The notes under the pieces: model-generated | The model's database searches: none | Seen by the model: the letters and a program-made list of their open reading frames with translations, nothing else | What the model was told of the DNA's origin: nothing | NCBI RefSeq assembly: GCF_028201475.1 | Contig: NZ_CP116383.1 | Location: 2,294,001-2,358,000, forward strand | Length of the DNA stretch: 64,000 nucleotides | Reading direction: 5' to 3' | Source of the DNA: Vibrio sp. SCSIO 43137 | GTDB taxonomy: Bacteria > Pseudomonadota > Gammaproteobacteria > Enterobacterales > Vibrionaceae | Shown: positions 4,365-15,795 of the stretch, piece after piece | Layout of the letters: each line of letters starts with the position of its first letter | How positions within the stretch are numbered: the first letter of the stretch is position 1 | Made by a program: the position numbers and the translations under genes

Positions 4365-4907
4365 TTGGACAAATCAATGTTAATTACCTTAGGGCAAAAC
4401 CTGCAGAAACTTCGTCTTGAGCGGGGGCTTTCTTTGTCCAAACTCGCTGCTGATGCCGGTATTGCCAAGTCAAACTTGTCGCGGCTGGAACAAGGTGTTG
4501 GTAATCCCACCGTGGATACCATCTGGCGCCTTGCGGTGCAGATGAATGTGCCCTTCGGCAGCTTAGTGGCCTCTGTCACCACACCTTTTGGCAGCGATGA
4601 GATACAGTTCAAATTGATCGAGCAGGGAACCGATAATCCTCAGGTCGATGCTTACTGGATGTCAATGGCACCGGAAAGCGAACGGGTTGCCGAGCCACAT
4701 TCACCGGGAACCCGAGAATCTGTTACCGTAATCAGTGGTGAACTGGAAATAAATACCGGCGGTAAGGTTAACACCCTGAAAGCGGGTGATCAGTTCACCT
4801 TTGCAGCAGATAACATCCATGAATATCGCAATGGTGAGCGTTGGTCTACCTTGCTGATGACCATCACCTACGCAGAGGAGGAGGCGGACAATGAATACAC
4901 AGATTGA
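4365..4907 (+). CDS. XRE-family transcriptional regulator with C-terminal cupin domain
   Basis: A 180-residue cytoplasmic regulator. Residues about 8-62 form a lambda-repressor-type helix-turn-helix (GQNLQKLRLERGLSLSKLA, then KSNLSRLEQGVGNP). Residues about 105-175 form a small-molecule-binding cupin barrel (PHSPGTRESVTVISGELE, then LKAGDQFTFAADNIHEYRN). The start is TTG at 4365: GAGG at 4354-4357 lies 7 bases before it, while the next ATG (4377) would be too far from that site. The gene overlaps azlC by 17 bases and azlC overlaps azlD by 8, so the three form one operon. Such regulators commonly control the adjacent AzlCD exporter; the 36-bp palindrome upstream is the probable operator. Confidence 0.9.
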   Translation: MDKSMLITLGQNLQKLRLERGLSLSKLAADAGIAKSNLSRLEQGVGNPTVDTIWRLAVQMNVPFGSLVASVTTPFGSDEIQFKLIEQGTDNPQVDAYWMSMAPESERVAEPHSPGTRESVTVISGELEINTGGKVNTLKAGDQFTFAADNIHEYRNGERWSTLLMTITYAEEEADNEYTD

Positions 4908-5622
4908 TACAGCCAACACTTCTCCGTGGATTGCCGGTATTAAAGATGCCCTGCCCCTTATGGGCAGTTATATCTCGGTAGCGGTTTCGTTCGGCGTTAT
5001 CTCTCTGCAATCGGGCTTTAGCATCTGGGAAACCATTGCTATTTCTGCTCTGGTGTATGCGGGAGCCTCTCAGTTTATCTTTGTCGCTATGGTTGCTTCG
5101 GGCGCACCGGTCTGGCTGGTTCTTGCGTTGACCATACTGATCAATGCCCGCCACTTGGTTTATGGCCCCAATCTGGCGCCTTATATCACCAATAGCCCGT
5201 GGTGGAAGGTTCTGATGCACGGCCTTACCGATCAGATTTTCGCCCTCGCCCTTACCCGGCTGCCACAACTGGTCGCCGAACATCGTATCGGCTGGTTTAC
5301 CGGCGCAAGCATAACCGCATGGTTAAGTTGGGTTGGCGGTACGGCATTAGGTGCTTATATGGGCGAAGAGGTGATCAGTCAATGGCCGTTGCTGGGTGAA
5401 ATGCTTCCCTTTGCCCTTCCGGCGCTATTTCTTGTCCTGCTGGCACCACGTTTTGATTCAATAGCATGGGGCATTACTTTAACTGTGACCATTGTTATGG
5501 CTTTGCTACTTAAGCTTATTGGTTACCCTAACGCCGCAATTCCTATGGCAGCAGTTTGCGGTACTGTGCTGTACTACTTTGTCCATAAGCCGAAAACAGA
5601 AACAGGAGAGCAACATGGGTGA
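4891..5622 (+). CDS. azlC: AzlC-family branched-chain amino acid exporter, large subunit
   Basis: A 243-residue inner-membrane protein that, with AzlD, exports branched-chain amino acids or their analogues. The family hallmarks are clear: GIKDALPLMGSYISVAVSFG near the N-terminus, ALVYAGASQFIFVAM, and NARHLVYGPNLAPYI. Hydrophobic segments cover most of the chain and the C-terminus ends polar (HKPKTETGEQHG). The start at 4891 overlaps the end of the regulator gene and has GAGGAGG just upstream. The end overlaps azlD by 8 bases, suggesting translational coupling. The substrate cannot be fixed from sequence. Confidence 0.92.
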   Translation: MNTQIDTANTSPWIAGIKDALPLMGSYISVAVSFGVISLQSGFSIWETIAISALVYAGASQFIFVAMVASGAPVWLVLALTILINARHLVYGPNLAPYITNSPWWKVLMHGLTDQIFALALTRLPQLVAEHRIGWFTGASITAWLSWVGGTALGAYMGEEVISQWPLLGEMLPFALPALFLVLLAPRFDSIAWGITLTVTIVMALLLKLIGYPNAAIPMAAVCGTVLYYFVHKPKTETGEQHG

Positions 5623-5950
5623 ACTAACCTGGTTAACACTGGGCCTCATCGCGCTGGCCACATTTTTGATGCGCACCGCTCCACTGTTCTGGATGTCGCG
5701 ACGATTAAAGCGTAGTGAGAACGGAAGTTCACTGGCCGATATTCCGTTATGGCTCAGGGTAATGGGCCCAATGATGATTGCCGCTATGTTCGGCACCTCG
5801 CTGATCCCGCCGACCTTGTCTTTCAATGCCTGGCTGGCTACGGGGCTGGGCGTTATTGCAACGCTACTGGCATGGTATAAAACACGCACTTTAGGAGTGC
5901 CGGTTCTGGCTGGTGTAGTGGTGTATGGTTTACTGGTGTCGTTACTTTAA
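5615..5950 (+). CDS. azlD: AzlD-family branched-chain amino acid exporter, small subunit
   Basis: A 111-residue membrane protein with about four hydrophobic segments, the partner of AzlC. Family features include LATFLMRTAPLFW and PLWLRVMGPMMIAAMFG. The ATG at 5615 follows AGGAGAG by 5 bases and overlaps the azlC stop. The last codons and stop (TTA CTT TAA) fall inside the 50-bp direct repeat at 5943-5992, so this gene's 3' end lies exactly at the left edge of the alpha-galactoside islet. Confidence 0.9.
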   Translation: MGELTWLTLGLIALATFLMRTAPLFWMSRRLKRSENGSSLADIPLWLRVMGPMMIAAMFGTSLIPPTLSFNAWLATGLGVIATLLAWYKTRTLGVPVLAGVVVYGLLVSLL

Positions 5951-5992
5951 TCCGGCATCAGCAACTATTCTGTCGAACTCACCTTTGGACTT
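5943..5992. repeat. 50-bp direct repeat, left copy (3' end of a binding-protein gene)
   Basis: Identical at all 50 positions to 15047-15096 and in the same orientation. Read on the minus strand it encodes KSKGEFDRIVADAGLK and a stop, the C-terminus of the binding protein at 15046-15795. Just beyond the repeat the minus strand still reads DSVIIK before a stop codon, so this may be a slightly longer remnant of a related gene. Identity ends at 5942/15046 and 5993/15097. The rest of the gap to 6183 holds no gene. It has two similar TTTTTTGTC tracts and a GACGCC/GGCGTC inverted repeat of unknown meaning. Confidence 0.9.
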
Positions 5993-6183
5993 GATAATAA
6001 CTGAATCCAACTAGCCGTCCGCCAATTTTTTGTCCCCCTTGCTTTCGCAGTTAAATCGACGCCCGGCCTCCCTGAAGCTTGGTAAATCAGATCATACCTA
6101 GGCGTCAATAACCCATTTTTTGTCACCGTAATTAAGGGGGGATGGATAGAAGAAACATTCCGTTAGATATAACACAGCAACAA

Positions 6184-7542
6184 CTACTGCATTTGAGCCC
6201 ACTGAGGCAGCCATTCGCCGTGAGCTTCACGCATTTGATCCACTAACGCCCAGATCTGCTCCAGATCCAGCTCAGCACCAGTATGTGGATCCATCATCGC
6301 AGCATGGTAGATATGTTGCGGATTTTCAGTCATCAGAGCTTCTACAGTCAGAGATTGCGTATTAATGGAAGAACGCATGATCGCGGCAAGTTGTGGTGGT
6401 AGCTCCCCAATATATGTAGGCTGGATTCCATTGCGGTTAACTAGGCAAGGTACTTCTACAGCGCAACCGTCAGGCAGAGAAGTAATTAGACCTGTGTTAA
6501 CAACATTTCCATAGATGACAGCGGGCTCATCGGTCCATACTGCGTTGATTATTTCAGAAGCGTACTCATCACTCTTGGTTATTTCAATATCCGCTGTACC
6601 TTGCAACTCTGCTGATTGTTCATTCCAGCCTACAATCTGTTCAACACAACGTATTGGGTACTCATCGAGCGGTACAGCGAACTTTTCGAGAAGGTCTTCA
6701 CGTCCCTGCTTGATAAACCATGGCGTATATTCAGCGAAATGTTCTGAGCTTTCTGTTACATAATAACCAGTTCGCTTCATCATTTCGTAGCGAATGATAT
6801 TCTTACACCGCTCAGATTCCTGACTTATCGCTTTCGGCAACACACCCTCAGCATAGCCTTGATGCAGTTGCGGATATAGATCGCGGTAGCTACCATCTTC
6901 CAGCCGTTCTTCATATTTGAGGAAGAATGCCTGATGGTTAATACCAGCACAGTAATAACGAATATTGTTGGCTGGAATATCCAGCTCTTTCGCAAGTAAT
7001 TCAGCAGTATGCTGCACAGAATGACAAAGACCAACCTGTTTAATAGTTGGATATTTTTTAGCAATTGCCCAGGTATTAATTGCCATGGGATTCACATATT
7101 GGATCATCAGCGCATCCGGACATACTTCTAACATATCCTCACACACTGACCATAGGTGCGGTACGGTACGCAGGCCACGCATAATACCGCCGATACCGAG
7201 TGTGTCAGCAATAGTCTGACGTATGCCAAACTCTTTTGGGATTTCGAAATCTATGATAGTACAGGGGTCATATCCCCCGATCTGGAAAGCGACAATAACA
7301 AAATCAGCGCCTTCCAAAGCTTCTCTTTGAATCTGATGTGTTGAAATTTTTGCTTCAACACCAAGTTTATCTACCATTCGGTTAGCGACAACTTTTGACT
7401 CATCGAGCCGGACCGGGTCAATATCCATTAGCGCTACTTCAGCACCACTCAGCGCATCACGCTGAAGAATATCACCAATAATGTTTTTCATGAACCCCGT
7501 TGAACCGGCACCAATAAACGCAATCTTTGGACATTTTTTCAT
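6184..7542 (-). CDS. melA: Alpha-galactosidase, glycoside hydrolase family 4
   Basis: A 452-residue cytoplasmic enzyme that hydrolyses melibiose and related alpha-galactosides. Family 4 enzymes need NAD+, a divalent metal and reducing conditions. The NAD-binding loop is GAGSTGF at residues 10-16. The metal site is formed by the Cys of LCHSVQ and the His of AGINHQAFF. Long blocks match E. coli MelA, for example ADFVIVAFQIGGYDPCT, ESSEHFAEYTPWFIK and YHAAMMDPHTGAEL, and the length is nearly the same (451). The gene is transcribed towards the left repeat and away from the 511-bp region with TTCCGG repeats. The ABC importer genes follow upstream on the same strand, so imported oligosaccharide would be cleaved inside the cell. 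Confidence 0.93.
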   Translation of the reverse strand: MKKCPKIAFIGAGSTGFMKNIIGDILQRDALSGAEVALMDIDPVRLDESKVVANRMVDKLGVEAKISTHQIQREALEGADFVIVAFQIGGYDPCTIIDFEIPKEFGIRQTIADTLGIGGIMRGLRTVPHLWSVCEDMLEVCPDALMIQYVNPMAINTWAIAKKYPTIKQVGLCHSVQHTAELLAKELDIPANNIRYYCAGINHQAFFLKYEERLEDGSYRDLYPQLHQGYAEGVLPKAISQESERCKNIIRYEMMKRTGYYVTESSEHFAEYTPWFIKQGREDLLEKFAVPLDEYPIRCVEQIVGWNEQSAELQGTADIEITKSDEYASEIINAVWTDEPAVIYGNVVNTGLITSLPDGCAVEVPCLVNRNGIQPTYIGELPPQLAAIMRSSINTQSLTVEALMTENPQHIYHAAMMDPHTGAELDLEQIWALVDQMREAHGEWLPQWAQMQ

Positions 7543-8053
7543 GACTATCTTCTTCCTTCATACCATAGCGAAATACAATTTCGGCTTTCCTCTTCATTGG
7601 AAATTTGATTTAAATATATCTAACTTGGCTTTTCTTCCGGATAACAGTATTAATCTTCCGGAAAATAATTAAATTTTCCGGACAGTTTTTTATAAATAGC
7701 AGCGTAACCATAAAACACCACGAGCTCACTTGCGGACGAATGAGCCGGAACGAAAACGGAAGCACATATCCCACTATATGGTCTATATAAATTTTAAATA
7801 TTTAGTAACCTAAATAACTGTTCCTAAATACGCGTCACTTTGGAAAATATCGAACAGTTACTTAATTGCCGGCTACATTTATGAAAAATGTAGGGTTAGG
7901 CGGGCACAATATGGAACTATGTTGAGTTCAAAATTGGAAAGATACAAAACTGCGCCATCTGAGGCTGTAACAAATAGAGCCTTGGCTATACTCAGGGAGT
8001 CTATATAAAGTCCGAACATCAACATAAGTACAATTGATATCCGGGCAAGATAG
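7543..8053. other. Intergenic region between melA and the ABC importer operon
   Basis: No gene is seen. The part next to melA carries the three TTCCGG repeats described separately and would hold the melA promoter. A perfect 8-bp hairpin (CTACATTT 7873-7880 with AAATGTAG 7886-7893) sits in the middle without a T-run. The right end is the 3' flank of the ATPase gene; I see no clear intrinsic terminator for it. Confidence 0.5.
7635..7681. promoter_or_regulatory. Three TTCCGG repeats at 20-21 bp spacing upstream of melA
   Basis: TTCCGG occurs at 7635-7640, 7656-7661 and 7676-7681, always in the same orientation and two helical turns apart, 93-140 bases upstream of the melA start. The same hexamer occurs twice at 21-bp spacing upstream of the importer operon. 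Direct repeats in helical phase are typical of AraC-family operators, and a MelR-like AraC gene lies in the same block. Confidence 0.65.
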
Positions 8054-9664
8054 TTACGCTATAACATCAAACGCTGCTTTGACCAGACGCTGGGTATAAG
8101 CAGTTTTAGGTTGTTCCATCACATCCTGAGTAGAACCGGCCTCTACCACTATTCCGTTACGCATTACCAACACATTATGACAAAGCGCCCGTACAACTTT
8201 CAGGTCGTGGCTGATAAACATATAACTGAGGTTATGCTTTTTCTGCAGATCTCTCAAAAGGTCAATAATTTGCGCCTGAATGGATAAATCTAATGCCGAT
8301 GTTGGTTCATCAAGCAGAATAAACTCCGGCTTAAGGATCACCGCACGTGCAATCGCAAGACGCTGCCTCTGCCCTCCGGAAAACTCGTGAGGGAACCGAT
8401 CAAGTGAATCGGCAGGCATCTGAACATCTTCTAATGCTTGTAGGATCAACTTTTTCCGTTCTTCTGACGTCTTACCAATTCCGTTCACAATCAACCCCTC
8501 CTCAAGGATCTGACGGATAATCATGCGCGGGTTCAATGAGGAAAATGGATCTTGAAATACCACCTGCATCCGGGTACGCAAAGGCTGTAACCCTTTCCTG
8601 TCAAGATTATGTATTTCTTTATTTTGAAATATGATGGTTCCGGACTGAATACTACTGAGACGAAGTAACGACATACCTAGTGTAGACTTCCCTGAACCTG
8701 ACTCTCCTACAATACCCAGAGTTTCGCCCTTTCTGATCCTTGTAGATACATCGTTTACCGCCACAACTTCTGTCTGTTTTCGGTTAAAGAAACCACCGTG
8801 TTTAATATTGAAAACTACTCGCAGATCTTCTCCGATAAGAATGGAGTCACTTCCGGCACTCAATGGCTCCGGTAACCCTTTCGGCTCTGAGTTAATCAGA
8901 TGTCGCGTATATGGGTGCCGGGGGTTGTTAAATACTTCTTGAGTCTTTCCTCTTTCCACAACCTCTCCATACCGCATAACGACCACTGAATCTGATATGT
9001 GACGTACTACGGTCAGGTCATGGGTAATAAGGATAATGCCCATATTATGCCTAGCCTGTAAATTTTTTAGCAGTGACAAGATCTCAGCCTGCACTGTCAC
9101 ATCTAGTGCTGTTGTGGGTTCATCGGCTATCAACAAGTCTGGCTTGTTTGCCAGTGCCATTGCAATCATTACCCGCTGGCGCTGCCCGCCAGACATTTCA
9201 TGGGGGTACTGTGCATAACGGGCTTCCGGGTCTGGTAACTGCACTTCATTCAATAGCTTAATCACTTCCGTTTTCAGTTCATCTTTGGCCATTTGACGAT
9301 GAGAGGTGACAATCTCAGCTATCTGATCGCCAATTCGGTATATTGGGTTTAGGCTGGTAAGCGGCTCTTGAAAGATCATGGATATCCGATTGCCTCGAAT
9401 TGCCTGCATCTGTAATTGTGAATATTTGGCCAGATCATCTCCCATAAACTGGATTTTCGTCTGTTTTCCCACAATGGCATTGGTCGCCAGCATGCCCATG
9501 ACGGCCCGGGCAGTCACCGATTTTCCTGAGCCAGACTCACCAACAACCGCCAGGGTTTCTCCTTTGTTTACGGCATAGCTGACGTTCCTGACTGCCTCTT
9601 TGACACCTGTCGTGGTGCGGAAAGAGACTTCGACATTGTCAATTTTTAATAGTTGTTCAGTCAT
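8054..9664 (-). CDS. ABC importer ATPase with two fused nucleotide-binding domains (OppD-OppF type)
   Basis: A 536-residue inner-membrane-associated ATPase that powers the peptide-family importer encoded just upstream. Domain 1 has Walker A GESGSGKS, signature MSGGQRQRV and Walker B LLIADEP, followed by the HPYTRHLI motif typical of oligopeptide/dipeptide ATPases. Domain 2 repeats GESGSGKST, FSGGQRQRL and FILLDEP. The ATG at 9664 was chosen because it overlaps the preceding permease stop by 8 bases; a longer frame upstream would run into the permease gene. Being last in the operon agrees with agp-type alpha-galactoside transporters, which use peptide-family components (established for Sinorhizobium). 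The substrate is inferred from the melA neighbour. Confidence 0.9.
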   Translation of the reverse strand: MTEQLLKIDNVEVSFRTTTGVKEAVRNVSYAVNKGETLAVVGESGSGKSVTARAVMGMLATNAIVGKQTKIQFMGDDLAKYSQLQMQAIRGNRISMIFQEPLTSLNPIYRIGDQIAEIVTSHRQMAKDELKTEVIKLLNEVQLPDPEARYAQYPHEMSGGQRQRVMIAMALANKPDLLIADEPTTALDVTVQAEILSLLKNLQARHNMGIILITHDLTVVRHISDSVVVMRYGEVVERGKTQEVFNNPRHPYTRHLINSEPKGLPEPLSAGSDSILIGEDLRVVFNIKHGGFFNRKQTEVVAVNDVSTRIRKGETLGIVGESGSGKSTLGMSLLRLSSIQSGTIIFQNKEIHNLDRKGLQPLRTRMQVVFQDPFSSLNPRMIIRQILEEGLIVNGIGKTSEERKKLILQALEDVQMPADSLDRFPHEFSGGQRQRLAIARAVILKPEFILLDEPTSALDLSIQAQIIDLLRDLQKKHNLSYMFISHDLKVVRALCHNVLVMRNGIVVEAGSTQDVMEQPKTAYTQRLVKAAFDVIA

Positions 9665-10802
9665 TAGCATATGGGTCCATTGCATCGCGCAGGCCATCAC
9701 CCAGCGCATTGAAAGAAAGGACGGAGATCACTACCATACCAACCGGTGCCATCAACCAAGGCGCGGCAGAGAATGATTGGAAGTCGCGGATTTGGTTAAG
9801 CATTACTCCCCAAGAGACCATAGGAGCCTGAACACCAACACCAAGAAATGAAAGAAAACTTTCCAGCAGAATAACTTCTGGCAAGAAGTAGGTCACCCAG
9901 ACAATAATGTGAGAGGACATATTAGGTACAATATGACGGGTAATAATTCGACGGTCTGAAGCACCTATCGCCACGGCGGCACGAACGTACTCCATTGATC
10001 GAACAGCGATGACTTTACCACGCAACTCACGGGACAAGTCAGTCCATTTCAGCAGGACCATAATCAGTGCGAACAGAATAAAAATAGTAACCGGCTCTGC
10101 CCGTTTGGGTAAAATCGCCACAAGAGCAAGAATAAGAGGCAGATCCGGAAATGCTTTGAGAAATTCTACGATACGCTGGGTAACAACATCAAAAACACCA
10201 CCAAAATATCCTGAAGCCACACCGACCAAAGTGCCAATTACCCCGGCAGCACTGACTACTAACAGCCCCATTAACAGGGTAATCTGAGTACCAAAAATCA
10301 TGCGGCTGAAAACATCACGCCCCAGATTATCCGTACCTAATAAGTGTATCGATTTGCCATTTTCTCCACCAAACAGATGTCGGTTGAATGTCATTCCCAT
10401 CCATTTCCAATCATCTCCTTCGGGAAAAAGAGTCAAATACACTGGGTTAGCAAGATCAGGTTTAAAGGTAATCTCGAAGGTTTCCATATCCATCTCTTCC
10501 AGATAAGGATAGACAAACGGCATAGAGATTCCTTTTCCCTCTTGCCAGATTTTTACTAACTGAGGTGGCGAATAAAGGGCGGCAGAATTCTTAGTATGGG
10601 CTGAGTATGGCGCAATAAACCCCGAGAGCACTGCACTCAGGAATACCAATAAACACCCAACAAGCCCCATCATTCCATAACGGTTATGACGGAATCTGGC
10701 ACGAACCAACTGCCAATAAGTCAGGGATTTGTCAGTGACAATTTCTGCATTCATTGCGAAAGAGTTGTCTGTATTCAATTTGGTGTGACTTTCCATGATC
10801 AC
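9657..10802 (-). CDS. ABC importer permease, DppC/OppC type
   Basis: A 381-residue inner-membrane permease. An N-terminal cytoplasmic stretch leads to a first membrane helix (about 41-65), then a long periplasmic insert (about 66-160), longer than in typical dipeptide permeases. The core carries LLGTDNLGRDVFSRMIFG, characteristic of the family, and the ATPase-contacting loop with EYVRAAVAIGASD and RHIVPN. The gene overlaps the upstream permease by 4 bases and the ATPase gene downstream by 8, so it is the middle of a tight operon. The extended insert resembles importers for large solutes, including sugar oligomers. Confidence 0.9.
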   Translation of the reverse strand: MIMESHTKLNTDNSFAMNAEIVTDKSLTYWQLVRARFRHNRYGMMGLVGCLLVFLSAVLSGFIAPYSAHTKNSAALYSPPQLVKIWQEGKGISMPFVYPYLEEMDMETFEITFKPDLANPVYLTLFPEGDDWKWMGMTFNRHLFGGENGKSIHLLGTDNLGRDVFSRMIFGTQITLLMGLLVVSAAGVIGTLVGVASGYFGGVFDVVTQRIVEFLKAFPDLPLILALVAILPKRAEPVTIFILFALIMVLLKWTDLSRELRGKVIAVRSMEYVRAAVAIGASDRRIITRHIVPNMSSHIIVWVTYFLPEVILLESFLSFLGVGVQAPMVSWGVMLNQIRDFQSFSAAPWLMAPVGMVVISVLSFNALGDGLRDAMDPYAND

Positions 10803-11821
10803 TTCCTTGTCATTGTAGCGTTACGGATACGCGGATCGAGTACAGCCAACAGTAAATCTGCAATTAGGTTACCGATTACCAGCAGCATAGCGACAAGCAT
10901 GAAAATGGCAGACACTACATACATATCCCGATCACTTACCGAACTCAGAATCAATGGACCTAGCGTAGGAATACCCAGCACAATGGCAATCTCTATTTCC
11001 CCTTTGATCATGTAGTCAAAACGGGAGCCCAAGTTCATGATCACTGGATGAAGTGCATTGGGAACAGCATGCTTAAACAGTACTCTATTATTGGTAAGCC
11101 CTTTTGCCCTGGCCGTTTCGATATACTGCATTTTCATCACATCCAACAGGTTGCCCCGCATCATACGTGTGGTGTAAGCCTGCCCAGCCCAAATTGAAAT
11201 AAGTAGTATTGGCCAGGTGTGTAGAAAGAAATCCCATAACTTACCAAAAGAAAAGTGTTCCTGAAGCATATACTCGGGTGAGTAGAGGGAGCCTATATAC
11301 GGTGAATGCCAGACAAAGGCCAAAAAGTATAGAATAATCAGTGACATCACGAATTTAGGGATCACAATACCGAGAAACGCGATGAGTGTCGCCAAGGTGT
11401 CCCCTAATTTGTACTGATAAACAGCGGCATAGATCCCCAGCACAATACCTACGCCCTGTCCGACAATCAAAGTAATCATCGCCAGACCGATTGTGCGTGG
11501 CAAACGGAGACCGATCACTTCCGTTACCGGGCGGTTTTGTGCGAAAGAAAGCCCAAAATCTCCATGAAAGATAATGCCTTTAATCCAATACAGATATTGT
11601 ACTGGCAGAGATTTGTCTAACCCCAGCTCCTTGCGCATCGCTTCCGCTTGTGGTTGAAGCTCTTCATAAGATTGCCCTGTCACAGACATGGCCTGCCCCA
11701 CCCAAGCATCAACATAATCTCCGGGAACGGCAACGATAATGGCAAATGAAGCAATTGATATGGCAAATAATAGCGGTATGGTGGCTAGGGTGCGTTTGAC
11801 TATAAAGAAGAGAACGTTCAT
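10799..11821 (-). CDS. ABC importer permease, DppB/OppB type
   Basis: A 340-residue inner-membrane permease, partner of the DppC-type protein. It has an N-terminal helix (about 9-31), the family's periplasmic segment with PVQYLYWIKGIIFHGDFGLSF, and the ATPase-docking loop YIETARAKGLTNNRVLFKHAVPNA. It overlaps the next permease by 4 bases (ATGA). Between it and the binding-protein gene upstream lies a strong hairpin (11855-11875) that probably sets the ratio of binding protein to membrane components. Confidence 0.92.
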   Translation of the reverse strand: MNVLFFIVKRTLATIPLLFAISIASFAIIVAVPGDYVDAWVGQAMSVTGQSYEELQPQAEAMRKELGLDKSLPVQYLYWIKGIIFHGDFGLSFAQNRPVTEVIGLRLPRTIGLAMITLIVGQGVGIVLGIYAAVYQYKLGDTLATLIAFLGIVIPKFVMSLIILYFLAFVWHSPYIGSLYSPEYMLQEHFSFGKLWDFFLHTWPILLISIWAGQAYTTRMMRGNLLDVMKMQYIETARAKGLTNNRVLFKHAVPNALHPVIMNLGSRFDYMIKGEIEIAIVLGIPTLGPLILSSVSDRDMYVVSAIFMLVAMLLVIGNLIADLLLAVLDPRIRNATMTRK

Positions 11822-11854
11822 CCCTAATCCTCCTTTTATTGCTTTATTTTGAAA

Positions 11855-11875
11855 GCCAGCCCGTTATGGGCTGGC
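11855..11875 (-). terminator. Mid-operon hairpin between binding-protein and permease genes
   Basis: GCCAGCCC (11855-11862) pairs with GGGCTGGC (11868-11875) over a 5-base loop. On the minus strand the stem is followed by only TTT, so it is likely a partial terminator or 3' stabiliser that keeps the binding protein more abundant than the permeases. Confidence 0.65.
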
Positions 11876-11893
11876 AAGAGCATAGATTGAGTA

Positions 11894-13912
11894 CTAATAC
11901 TCTGCAATTACCCCAGGTAAGAGCTCAGTCTGCTGTTCTTCTTTCGCTACCCATAGACGCTCACGAATGATCCCATCCTCTGCCCACTCAAACATAAAGG
12001 TCGGGGTTCCGGGGTGAGCATTTTTCACCCGCTTATTAACCAACAGAGCCCCCGGTGCCTGAACGGTACCAATAACATAGGCATTTTCTGTAATTATGGT
12101 TTGCATATCCAAAATGGCCTTCAACTTGACATTTGCATCACTCGAAGAAACAAAGGTGTTGTACCGTTCAATCAGTTCCTTCTCAAACGGCATCAAATTC
12201 CGTTCTCCATTATTGGCCTGATGGTAGTATGGACACTTCTCACTAACCGGAAGTTGATCACATACTTCGCGGGTGGGCCGTACAAAGTTGGTACGTTGGA
12301 ACAAGGCATTAGCGCTACCCCCAGCTCTTATTCGTTCAAAACTGGACTCATCGAGGCCTTTAGGAAGTAGTCTGATACCTACATCGGCAAGCTGAGAGGT
12401 CATGGCATCTACTTGTTTACGAGCATCGTTACGGCTGGAAATGAAAACCAGATCAATCACCAGATCTTCACCTGTTTTAGGCATATTTCTGATCCCGTTA
12501 CCGTCGATATCCTTCAAGCCCAAAGAATCCAGCAACTTTTTAGCTTTCTTAATATCGTATGGTTGATACACAGTACTTGAGTAGTCAAAGTAAGGAGAAC
12601 CACTTAAGAAACCACCAGTGTATGGGTATGTGAACGGGCCGCGAACGACCGACTGGCCAATCGATTTTCGGTCAAGAGCATGACTAAAAGCGATTCGGAA
12701 ATCTTTATTGCGGAATAAGCGCCGGAGCTCGCTATCAATATCATCTTTTATGCCAATATTGGAAAAGTTCAGATTAACTCGCCAGCCTTGAATGCGGGGA
12801 CCAAACTTAACTTCTATCGGAGAATCCGGGGTGCGGGACTGTTTCACAGCTTCAACGAAGTTACCTGGGTTCTCCATATTCGAAAAATCTCCCGTACCCG
12901 CTATGGCTTGTGTAGTACGGTCATCCCATGTAGAAAGTTTGAAGTGAAGTTCGTTTAAGTAGGGAAGTTGTTGCCCTTTTTCATCTACTTTCCAGTAATA
13001 AGGGTTACGACGCAGAATGACTAGTTCATCAGGCTTATGCAGAACCGGAACCCAGGCTCCCATTACTGGAATCGGCAATGCATCCGCAGGCATTGCCGCA
13101 GAATAAGAACTGTAAGTTGCTTCGCTATTGTATTTCGGGTGGTATTTCTTCAGCACATGACTCGGGCCAGGACAACCCTGAAGAAAAGCAAAGTTTTCAA
13201 CAATGCTTTCGTTTTTTTGCTCGGCGAAAGTAAAACGGATTGTGTAAGCATCTACGACATCAAGTTTGGTTCCTTCTCCCAGTGTGCCGGCTCTCATAAA
13301 AGAAGCGACATTTGCATCTTCAACATTATCTTCCCACCAGAATTTTATGTCATCGCTATCAAAAGTATCACCATCTGACCATTTAGCTCCTTCAATTAGA
13401 TGCATCGTTAATTGTGTATTATCTTGATTCCATTCCCAAGATTTCGCCAGGTTTGGAAGTGGACCGGTTTGTCCAGCGGGTTTAATCTGCCAACGAGGGC
13501 CTTGCCGGACAAGGCACTCCTGAAGCGCCATATTGATGCCACCCCACCCCTGAGTTTGACCGGCAAGCCAATTAAACCCTTGTGGCCTTCCGCCTATAAC
13601 GTGTCTGAAGACACCACCATATTCGCCAACCCCGTCAGACATGGCAGCAGTTTTGAATACAAGTGGTTCTTTTGGCAGGCGTTTTTCCAGAGGGGGAAGT
13701 TTACCAGCAGTCACTAACTGCTTCAAAAAAGGCGCTTCACTGTATGAGGGTAATGAGCGGTAATTATAAATTTCATTACGACCAATTAGCTCATACTCCA
13801 AACCAGACAGATGTTTTTCAGGTGGTAGCTTATCTGCCATTGCAGCAGCAGAAAACAGGATACTACTTACAATAGCTAGGGTTAAAGGTAGGGGTTTTCT
13901 TATACGTAACAT
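11894..13912 (-). CDS. Periplasmic oligosaccharide/oligopeptide-family binding protein (AgpA-like)
   Basis: A 672-residue SBP_bac_5 protein, longer than ordinary peptide-binding proteins (about 530-550) and close in size to alpha-galactoside-binding AgpA of rhizobia. It has a signal peptide (ending SAAAMA, about residue 26). Family features include LAKSWEWNQDNTQLTMHLIE, GAKWSDGDTFDSDDIKFWWED and RIAFSHALDRKSIG. It is the first gene of the importer operon. Its start faces the divergent MelR-like gene across a 143-bp region with two TTCCGG sites, and melA lies at the other end. I infer that it binds alpha-galactosides such as melibiose or raffinose; a peptide substrate is the alternative. Confidence 0.85.
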   Translation of the reverse strand: MLRIRKPLPLTLAIVSSILFSAAAMADKLPPEKHLSGLEYELIGRNEIYNYRSLPSYSEAPFLKQLVTAGKLPPLEKRLPKEPLVFKTAAMSDGVGEYGGVFRHVIGGRPQGFNWLAGQTQGWGGINMALQECLVRQGPRWQIKPAGQTGPLPNLAKSWEWNQDNTQLTMHLIEGAKWSDGDTFDSDDIKFWWEDNVEDANVASFMRAGTLGEGTKLDVVDAYTIRFTFAEQKNESIVENFAFLQGCPGPSHVLKKYHPKYNSEATYSSYSAAMPADALPIPVMGAWVPVLHKPDELVILRRNPYYWKVDEKGQQLPYLNELHFKLSTWDDRTTQAIAGTGDFSNMENPGNFVEAVKQSRTPDSPIEVKFGPRIQGWRVNLNFSNIGIKDDIDSELRRLFRNKDFRIAFSHALDRKSIGQSVVRGPFTYPYTGGFLSGSPYFDYSSTVYQPYDIKKAKKLLDSLGLKDIDGNGIRNMPKTGEDLVIDLVFISSRNDARKQVDAMTSQLADVGIRLLPKGLDESSFERIRAGGSANALFQRTNFVRPTREVCDQLPVSEKCPYYHQANNGERNLMPFEKELIERYNTFVSSSDANVKLKAILDMQTIITENAYVIGTVQAPGALLVNKRVKNAHPGTPTFMFEWAEDGIIRERLWVAKEEQQTELLPGVIAEY

Positions 13913-13970
13913 AGCATTATCTCCATGTTTTTAGTTCAGGAGATAATGAATGTTATTACGAGGTTAAGTC

Positions 13971-13997
13971 TTCCGGTATTTACTATAGAGATTCCGG
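13971..13997. promoter_or_regulatory. Two TTCCGG repeats between importer operon and MelR-like gene
   Basis: TTCCGG at 13971-13976 and 13992-13997, same orientation, 21 bases apart, about 60-85 bases from both the importer start (13912) and the regulator start (14056). The spacing matches the repeats upstream of melA, so both promoters probably answer to the same AraC-family protein. Confidence 0.65.
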
Positions 13998-14055
13998 AAA
14001 TAAACAATAAAGCCAAAGCATCGATCAAAGTCACGTCGAAATTGAAGGGTAAGTA

Positions 14056-14966
14056 ATGCTTAGAAGTATTGATGAAGAGAAGTTAATACATGCCATTGAT
14101 ATTGAACCCATCAATGCGACATCCCAAAGTACCATTTTATTGGAGCATCATCAGCCAGTAGCTTGGGAACAGGCTTACCACCACCATGCTTCTATAGAAA
14201 TTAATTTTCTTAGTAACTGTGACATGTCTTACTCATTTTCTGACCGTAATGTGAAGCTGTACGACGGGTTTCTGACGCTTTTTTGGGGTGCCTATCCTCA
14301 CCGGGTTATCGATGTGAAAGGCAAAGGCACTGTTACCAATGTATACATTGCTTTGTCACAATTTCTGCAATGGCCACTACCACAACCCTTTATCAATGCT
14401 GTCCTCTCTGGTGCAGTTATCTCAACTAAAAGGCGGTGTACGGAAGATGACCACCTTACAAAACGTTGGGTAGAAGAACTCAGCAAAAAAGAGAGTGTAT
14501 GGGAGCACCTCCACATACTTGAGTTAGAAGCTCGTCTTTACCGTTTAGCGGTGGAAGGGTGGAAGGGTGGAATGAGCTTATTCCCTCTCGTCAGAAAGAC
14601 GACCTGAAAGTTGTCGGTGGAAAAGCTATCCTACACTTTGAGCGTATGCTCCGTTATATGTCAAAGAACTTTTCAAACCCTATTTCAGTTGGGCATATTG
14701 CTGACGATTCAGGGGTTTCAGTAAGCTATGCAGTGATGTTGTTTCGAAGGTTCCTGGGTCGTACCGCTAAGGAACACTTGACTGATTTAAGGTTACAACA
14801 TGCCAAGATGCTATTGAGCGAGTCCGATGCAAAGGTCGTGACTGTTGCAATTGAAAGTGGTTTTACGTCACTTTCCAGCTTTTACGATACCTTCCAAAAG
14901 AACGTGAATACCTCTCCGGCAGAGTACCGAAAAATCACAAATCAAAAGAAAATTTCTTCTCGTTAA
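14056..14966 (+). pseudogene. MelR-like AraC-family regulator, frameshifted by an 8-bp tandem duplication
   Basis: The first part (14056-14562) resembles the sugar-sensing N-terminal domain of MelR, with FLTLFWGAYPHRVIDV where E. coli MelR has a similar LFWACTPHQ block. The rest (14559-14966), in another frame, is the two-motif AraC DNA-binding domain (HIADDSGVSVSYAVMLFRR, then AIESGFTSLSSFY and SPAEYRK). GTGGAAGG occurs twice in tandem at 14551-14566 and is followed by GTGGAA. Removing one copy gives ...VEGWNELIPSRQ... and a 300-residue protein, against 302 for MelR. As written, translation ends soon after residue 170. The gene may be phase-variable by slippage, recently broken, or an assembly error. 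Confidence 0.85.
14551..14566 (+). repeat. 8-bp tandem duplication causing the frameshift in the MelR-like gene
   Basis: Two exact copies of GTGGAAGG (14551-14558 and 14559-14566), followed by a partial third copy GTGGAA (14567-14572). One extra unit shifts the frame by two; deleting one unit restores a full-length regulator. Confidence 0.9.
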
Positions 14967-15045
14967 ATCGCAAATATTCATAGTTCTATACTCAAAACGA
15001 GATGGGATTATTCCGGATTACCGGGCAAGATTAGCTTACAAACAC

Positions 15046-15795
15046 CTACTTTAATCCGGCATCAGCAACTATTCTGTCGAACTCACCTTTGGACTTAAGT
15101 AGTTGTATACCTCTGTTGAAATCCTGAGTCAAGGTTTTGTACTCAGGATTTGCTTTAGAAAAGGCAACATACATATCGTATACCTTATATGGCGTATCAA
15201 GTCTTCTGGCTTCTATCTTCTTACCTTCAGTCGCCAGCAGGCTTAACTTATAACGTAAAACAGCGTCAGGAATTATCATGGCGTCAATGCGTCCTGCTGC
15301 CAGCTTAAGTATATTTTGAGTATGGTCGAGGACATCCTGAGTCGTTATCCCTTCACTGGTAAGGTGTTTAGAGACAACGGAACCACTAACTACCCCAATG
15401 GTGTACCCCCTGAAATCTGAAACCTTTCCGGAATAAGTTATGAGCTGATTCGGCAGGACAGCGACTACAACAGTCACTTTCCAGACAACATCAGGATACT
15501 CCAGATACTCAGCACTGCTTTTTTCCCAGTATGCCGTCATTACACCATCTACAGATCCTGTTTTCGCTTCCTGAAGAGCACGCCGCCAAGGCCGGTACTG
15601 ATATTCCACCTTATAGCCGGCCTCGGCAAAGGCACGAGTTACAATCTGACTGAAAAAACCGTGTTCCGGAAGTTGTTCACCTGTGTAGGGAGGAAGGTTT
15701 ATGCTGGAAAGCAGAACTTTTTTCTCGGCGAGGGCTTGGCCAGACATAAACAAAGAGCTGATCAGTAGCATCAGAATAAGGCAATATTTTTTCAT
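15046..15795 (-). CDS. Orphan periplasmic amino-acid-type substrate-binding protein
   Basis: A 249-residue SBP_bac_3 family protein with a signal peptide (MKKYCLILMLLISSLFMSG, cleaved about ALA). It has family features such as GFFSQIVTRAFAEAGYKVEY, YRPWRRALQEAKTGSVDGVM and GVVSGSVVSKHL, and ends KSKGEFDRIVADAGLK. The ATG at 15795 has GGAGAG 9 bases before it. No permease adjoins. The last 50 bases of the gene region are duplicated at 5943-5992 next to azlD, which makes this gene the right boundary of the alpha-galactoside islet. It is convergent with the MelR-like gene. Confidence 0.87.
   Translation of the reverse strand: MKKYCLILMLLISSLFMSGQALAEKKVLLSSINLPPYTGEQLPEHGFFSQIVTRAFAEAGYKVEYQYRPWRRALQEAKTGSVDGVMTAYWEKSSAEYLEYPDVVWKVTVVVAVLPNQLITYSGKVSDFRGYTIGVVSGSVVSKHLTSEGITTQDVLDHTQNILKLAAGRIDAMIIPDAVLRYKLSLLATEGKKIEARRLDTPYKVYDMYVAFSKANPEYKTLTQDFNRGIQLLKSKGEFDRIVADAGLK
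15047..15096. repeat. 50-bp direct repeat, right copy
   Basis: Exact match to 5943-5992. Here it is the functional 3' end of the binding-protein gene (15 sense codons plus part of the stop). Together the two copies bracket melA, the importer operon and the MelR-like gene. Confidence 0.9.

Follow-up and report, generated by a model that had tools for sequence, protein, structure and literature searches.

The 64,000-bp stretch of the Vibrio sp. SCSIO 43137 genome analysed here (the window; positions 2,294,001-2,358,000 of contig 1) contains a 9-kb islet of alpha-galactoside genes that is bracketed by two identical 50-bp direct repeats. The genome is 4.94 Mb in two contigs and is 99.98% complete. 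The islet lies between azlD and the gene of a family-3 periplasmic binding protein (PBP), whose 3' end forms one of the repeat copies. The features of the locus, in window coordinates, are as follows.

4891..5622, forward strand: azlC, branched-chain amino acid exporter subunit (PF03591)
5615..5950, forward strand: azlD (PF05437)
5943..5992, forward strand: left copy of the repeat, its first 8 bases being the end of azlD
5993..15046, no strand: islet proper, the 9054 bp between the repeat copies
6184..7542, reverse strand: melA, alpha-galactosidase of glycoside hydrolase family 4 (GH4) (PF02056/PF11975; NF011657 at 662 bits, cut-off 486)
7635..7661, forward strand: operator-like TTCCGG-N15-TTCCGG upstream of melA
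8054..9676, reverse strand: double ATPase of an ATP-binding cassette (ABC) transporter, Opp/Dpp class (PF00005 twice)
9657..10802, reverse strand: permease 2, OppC type (PF00528, PF12911)
10799..11821, reverse strand: permease 1, OppB type (PF00528, PF19300)
11894..13912, reverse strand: family-5 substrate-binding protein (PF00496)
13971..13997, forward strand: operator-like TTCCGG-N15-TTCCGG between the regulator and the binding-protein gene
14056..14607, forward strand: MelR-like regulator, N-terminal piece (frame analysis and congener comparison)
14550..14572, forward strand: 8-bp tandem repeat, GGTGGAAG x2.9, breaking the regulator frame (Tandem Repeats Finder)
14559..14966, forward strand: MelR-like regulator, C-terminal DNA-binding piece in the other frame (PF12833)
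15046..15795, reverse strand: PBP gene, its 3' end being the repeat (PF00497)
15047..15096, forward strand: right copy of the repeat, wholly within the 3' end of the PBP gene

The copies of the 50-bp repeat are exactly identical, are in the direct orientation and are spaced by 9104 bp. The right copy is the 3' end of an intact binding-protein gene and the left copy carries the end of azlD; in other words, the 3' end of a gene has been duplicated and the intact gene stands at one side. In these points the coordinates agree with an earlier reading made from the sequence only. A search of the whole genome that allowed up to three mismatches gave 2 copies in total, and the objection that the repeat might be scattered in many copies did not hold. 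That reading had also proposed to look for the same 50 bp around other cargo: none was found in this genome or in viral contigs. As a background, direct repeats that are exact over 50 nt or more and spaced by 500 bp or more were surveyed in 20 stretches of 20 kb and in the window. The only others were five pairs belonging to one duplication with a spacing of about 5 kb (L163) and one duplicated tRNA-Gly pair (L157). The repeat-bracketed islet is a real, non-random feature. It should be mentioned that L163 contains several exact direct repeats, the longest of 293 nt and about 5 kb apart, which represent a recent tandem duplication.

The two edges of the repeat differ in character. The left edge (5943/15047) falls on the PBP stop codon, at its second base. 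The right edge (5992/15096) lies in the middle of the PBP gene and coincides with no gene feature. The left copy starts two codons before the end of the azlD stop, and 42 of its bases are non-coding. When it is read on the opposite strand, the left copy closes PBP with TAA; PBP as it stands, with the right copy, closes with TAG. In a model from which the islet was removed, PBP would end in ...ADAGLK-TAA and would overlap azlD tail to tail by 9 bp, as had been predicted. This ancestral overlap, which is read from the left copy itself, is plausible but falls short of proof, because a random base would yield a stop at this position half of the time. The C-terminus of AzlD is VSLL* here and VSFLG* in the alignment with the nearest congener, V. 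hannami. The repeat may therefore supply the last one or two codons of AzlD. As a separate observation, azlD is an outlier in codon usage (z of -4.4), the gene being short and the background genes all having at least 200 amino acids.

The gene content of the islet was assigned by Pfam and NCBIfam models. The GH4 enzyme MelA, the double ATPase, the two permeases, the family-5 binding protein and a regulator of the AraC/MelR type were all identified, as had been proposed, and no recombinase is present among the identified genes. The combination of a GH4 enzyme, a linked importer and a MelR-type regulator is that of a MelA/alpha-galactoside regulon. On paper, the islet is self-contained, with its enzyme, four-gene importer, regulator and two operator-like sites. 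Two relatives of the islet binding protein (P0038 and P0100) bear the name alpha-galactoside binding protein.

The regulator was only partly as expected: its AraC/MelR type stands, but it is not one open frame. The frames 14056-14607 and 14559-14966 join at the 2.9 copies of GGTGGAAG at 14550-14572, and the unit is not a multiple of three. The C-terminal piece scored 98 bits against the MelR model, below the cut-off of 253. In the congeners with a related cluster the regulator is a single stop-to-stop frame of 314-317 residues (5/5). The frame break may be damage, slippage-prone switching or a sequencing error. The exact motif TTCCGG-N15-TTCCGG has 2 matches in the 64 kb, and with up to one mismatch 7 were found against 0.16 expected; it is present in none of the other loci fetched, the mel clusters of congeners included. 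The two sites are likely to be operators of the islet's own regulator. The excess of TTCCGG as such (80 against 24 in dinucleotide shuffles) was set aside, as it is accounted for by shorter words in a CCGG-rich genome.

At the left end of the islet, the 191 bp at 5993-6183 have no second copy in the genome and none in plasmids. Within them, a 23-nt exact match of 6105-6127 to a part of an rbsB-like gene of a congener (G125) is probably due to chance, and a second, similar T-rich motif lies nearby at 6022-6037. Rfam gave a single match, far under the gathering score.

The islet carries the signature of its host. The GC content at third codon positions of the operon is 0.431, compared with 0.455 ± 0.053 in 239 host genes, which is ordinary codon usage. 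The tetranucleotide correlation of the islet with the host is 0.67, whereas 40 host pieces gave 0.76 ± 0.07, five of the 40 being lower than the islet. The corresponding value for 33 congener pieces, drawn from the azl, mel and eamA neighbourhoods only, was 0.46 ± 0.10 with a maximum of 0.63, so that all 33 were below the islet. CCGG occurs 4.75 times per kb in the islet and 4.92 times in the host, as against 1.4-1.7 times in congeners. Irrespective of the islet, CCGG is about three times as frequent in this genome (4.9 per kb) as in the congener loci that were read (1.4-1.7 per kb). The comparison of composition with the host, a check of the kind suggested in the sequence-only reading, showed none of the foreign composition expected of a genomic island. 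A word composition that matches the host and is unlike that of the congeners means that the islet is not freshly foreign. At the same time, the absence of any difference between the repeat copies (0/50), despite 42 non-coding bases, indicates that the present placement is recent (divergence below about 6%). The host-like signature and the exact repeat together suggest a recent move, within the lineage, of an operon that is old and ameliorated.

PBP itself has a restricted distribution. A protein search detected no orthologue among 226 congeners (best other match 113 bits, against 545 for the self match); 113 of the 227 genomes gave a match at E <= 0.001, with 24-36% identity among the matches listed. 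At the DNA level, matches were obtained in 2 of 100 genomes, namely this genome and one 25-nt hit. A search of genome contigs gave only three distant relatives (30-44%), and viral contigs gave none. In a large protein set 23 relatives were present, the nearest of which (88% and 80%) are from metagenomes. As PBP has no orthologue in the congeners, the empty-site form, azlD convergent with PBP, cannot be read in the genomes at hand.

Comparison with a metagenome protein (P0002) revealed an uneven distribution of differences along PBP. Before residue 151, 115 of 142 residues match (81%), and after it 96 of 99 (97%). A third sequence, P0003, is about equidistant from PBP and P0002 throughout (111 and 115 of 142; 81 and 82 of 99). 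The breakpoint falls at residues 156-185, that is, 195-280 bp from the 3' end of the gene, and 1 of 2000 permutations was equally strong. PBP looks like a recombinant mosaic, in which the exchange affected the islet-facing part of the gene.

The islet binding protein has nearer relatives outside the mel clusters of the congeners. Among the best 120 of 2877, these include proteins of Roseibium (67%), other marine alphaproteobacteria (60-65%) and V. nigripulchritudo (59%). Identity to the binding proteins in the mel clusters of five congeners is 44-46%. At E <= 1e-150, none of the 368 other sampled gammaproteobacterial genomes gave a match, this genome being the only one of 369, and it contains no closely related second copy of the gene. 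The peptide-ABC matches in loci L113 and L114 (24-38%) are unrelated and do not represent the mel cluster. On the other side, AzlC has orthologues in 12 congeners (58-73% identity) and a 95% relative among metagenome contigs (P0144). The azlCD loci of the congeners, which include no close strain, have neither a mel cluster nor PBP nearby (12/12). The supposition that all relatives might carry the block at this place is not borne out by these loci. The genes eamA and mocR are adjacent in 16/16 loci fetched (150 genomes matched), but their neighbours otherwise differ and PBP is in none. The azlCD and eamA-mocR surroundings are a patchwork with no fixed reference order. On the transfer of melibiose genes in Vibrio, a literature search gave nothing relevant among the papers listed.

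These observations are most readily accommodated by a recent event in which an old, ameliorated operon was captured or relocated within the lineage through recombination anchored in PBP, with duplication of the PBP end. This explanation is tentative, and its probability is put at roughly 0.45. In the donor DNA, a PBP gene with an almost identical 3' end would have been followed immediately by the operon, whereas the recipient would have had azlD in that downstream position, in a tail-to-tail junction with PBP. The DNA would have come from a close relative or from elsewhere in the same lineage. The insertion might have followed either of two routes. In one, a circularised fragment would enter via a single crossover inside the shared 50 bp. 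In the other, of the type known as homology-facilitated illegitimate recombination (HFIR), a linear fragment would recombine in PBP and join illegitimately 50 bp inside PBP. With either route, azlD would be followed by the 50 bp, the islet and the intact PBP; the repeat would then have one edge given by the PBP end and a second, arbitrary one in mid-gene, where the fragment ended. The observed edges, one at the PBP stop and the other in mid-gene, would be expected, with no enzyme required, if the recombination was anchored in the shared PBP and the donor and the recipient differed downstream. Integration of a circularised linear fragment by a RecA-dependent single crossover is described, as is HFIR, in the available part of PMC3240628. 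Recombination from a donor strand, named as an alternative in the sequence-only reading, gains support from these results.

Several points weigh against capture anchored in PBP. A length of 50 bp is a short homology for RecA. A donor in which the operon adjoins PBP was not found, and no relatives of the islet binding protein between 67% and the islet's own were present among the best 120 of 2877. With no differences over 50 bases, the divergence between the PBP ends of donor and recipient is below about 6% (95% bound), which calls for a close donor. The mosaic partner P0002 was not seen to carry the operon or azlC: on its 20,059-bp contig, no record of the islet binding protein or of AzlC occurs among the best 120 matches, a weak result in that each cluster is represented by its longest contig alone. 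The breakpoint test was post hoc, the pattern having been seen first, and used three sequences. The breakpoint may stem from another event, and it does not alone date the islet; the homologous recombination on one side that characterises HFIR might be reflected in the PBP mosaic, which is not tied to the islet event. Finally, HFIR usually deletes recipient DNA and uses a microhomology of 3-10 bp, as far as described in PMC3240628, and here a duplication is found.

The main rival is a decayed or trans-mobilised integrative element, in which a tyrosine recombinase would have targeted the 3' end of PBP. The two copies would be its left and right attachment (att) sites, attL and attR, the integrase having since disappeared or acting from elsewhere. 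Direct repeats of 8-60 bp and insertion at a gene 3' end with rebuilding of that gene are described for such elements, and a cis-mobilisable element (CIME) is a decayed form that retains attL and attR after loss of the integration and transfer genes (PMC5704250, in the part available). The exact 50-bp repeat is within this size range and lies at a gene 3' end, its copies could be att sites, and the genome has 16 matches to the integrase family PF00589. No match to this family is present within the range of the window, however, and the nearest one is about 33 kb to the left, so that neither end of the islet has an integrase near it. The four gaps between the islet genes hold no stop-to-stop frame of more than 65 residues that could be an integrase remnant. 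The integration targets listed in the same part of PMC5704250 are tRNA and housekeeping genes, whereas PBP, missing from 226 congeners, lacks the conservation of an att gene and would make an unusual att site. The 50 bp occur nowhere else in the genome or in viral contigs, the composition of the islet is host-like, and no flanking direct repeats of at least 14 bp were seen at five related Vibrio mel clusters, two of which lie wholly within the fetched stretch.

A direct comparison is provided by a further feature of the same contig:

L187-L188, G000:C1 about 2245163-2273338: tRNA-end island array, with five PF00589 matches in or at it

This tandem array consists of three tRNA-end blocks (tRNA-Pro and, twice, tRNA-Ser) located 27-55 kb to the left of the left copy. 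Their repeats are 23-27 bp, and each has an integrase next to it, with a PF00589 frame starting 19-70 bp from the att copy. The array shows how site-specific islands look in this genome, and the mel islet differs from it. The geometry of an integrative island, as first proposed, stands, but the islet lacks a conserved att gene, a foreign composition and a likeness to the nearby islands; the island reading is only partly supported, and an integrative element is considered unlikely. A transposon is not indicated either: no inverted-repeat pair joins the islet ends, and the duplication is 50 bp.

The whole arrangement, together with its repeats, could also have been imported from a sibling strain by homologous recombination through azlCD and PBP, the original insertion having occurred elsewhere by a route that this explanation leaves aside. 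The breakpoint in PBP, 195-280 bp from the 3' end and facing the islet, would then be one end of the import. The host-like signature and the 95% relative of azlC in metagenome contigs are in accordance with this, but no such donor was seen, and the question of origin is shifted without being answered. Sibling import seems quite improbable. A local event is a further alternative: in staggered-break repair or template switching, an operon of the same genome or lineage would be copied or ligated into a break, and fill-in of 50-nt overhangs would give a 50-bp target duplication. With the 9-bp overlap of azlD and PBP in the islet-less model, a plain insertion would break one gene. The repeat might thus span both stop codons by selection, because only insertions that duplicate the overlap keep both overlapping genes whole. 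The host signature of the islet also fits. However, a literature search gave no bacterial precedent for break repair with such a target duplication, neither the 191 bp of the left end nor the binding-protein gene has a second or closely related copy in the genome, and the ancestral overlap is read from the left copy itself. This makes a break-repair origin very doubtful. Speculatively, and with little probability, the 3' end of PBP might be a lineage-specific docking site, a 50-bp anchor at which integrase-free catabolic cassettes would be swapped beside azlD among sister strains, driven by RecA or by an unknown trans-acting recombinase. An assembly artefact or chance is hardly credible. The frameshift in the regulator could be a sequencing error, but the copies are separated by 9.1 kb in a genome of two contigs that is 99.98% complete, agree in all 50 bases and connect coherent gene ends.

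The islet is a clean, datable example of a complete sugar-use regulon set between two genes, with no mobility genes and with its neighbours unharmed. If the model of an anchor in PBP is true, gene ends common to donor and recipient would be natural joints at which genes are gained. An integrase would then not need to be assumed from direct repeats at a gene end, which matters for programs that call islands from repeats.

The closest kind of operon is that of the alpha-galactoside transport and MelA (agp/mel) operons of the Sinorhizobium type. They share with the islet a family-5 binding protein, two Opp-type permeases, a double ATPase, a GH4 alpha-galactosidase and an AraC-type regulator, and the binding proteins on rhizobial plasmids are about 46% identical to that of the islet. 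The islet differs from them in its host-like composition, its split regulator frame and its placement between azlD and PBP with a 50-bp duplication. Among the mel clusters of Vibrio, those of G016 and G263 have the same gene order and a divergent regulator, and those of G039, G044 and G201 show a looser likeness. Their binding proteins, however, are only 44-46% identical, their genomic places are other ones, the operator is not shared and no flanking repeats were seen there. Genomic islets, integrative (mobilisable) elements and CIMEs at gene 3' ends resemble the islet in a size below 10 kb, direct repeats and a rebuilt target, as far as described in PMC2704930 and PMC5704250, but the mel islet lacks an integrase, a conserved target gene, a foreign composition and a second site. 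With HFIR and the single crossover of circularised DNA, it has in common one homologous anchor and one arbitrary joint, and a single crossover gives flanking direct repeats (PMC3240628, in the part available). In contrast to the HFIR cases described there, the islet shows a duplication and not the usual deletion, and the 9-kb insert exceeds the size of about 1 kb. In terms of these systems, the islet is an integrase-less catabolic islet, which is a known kind.

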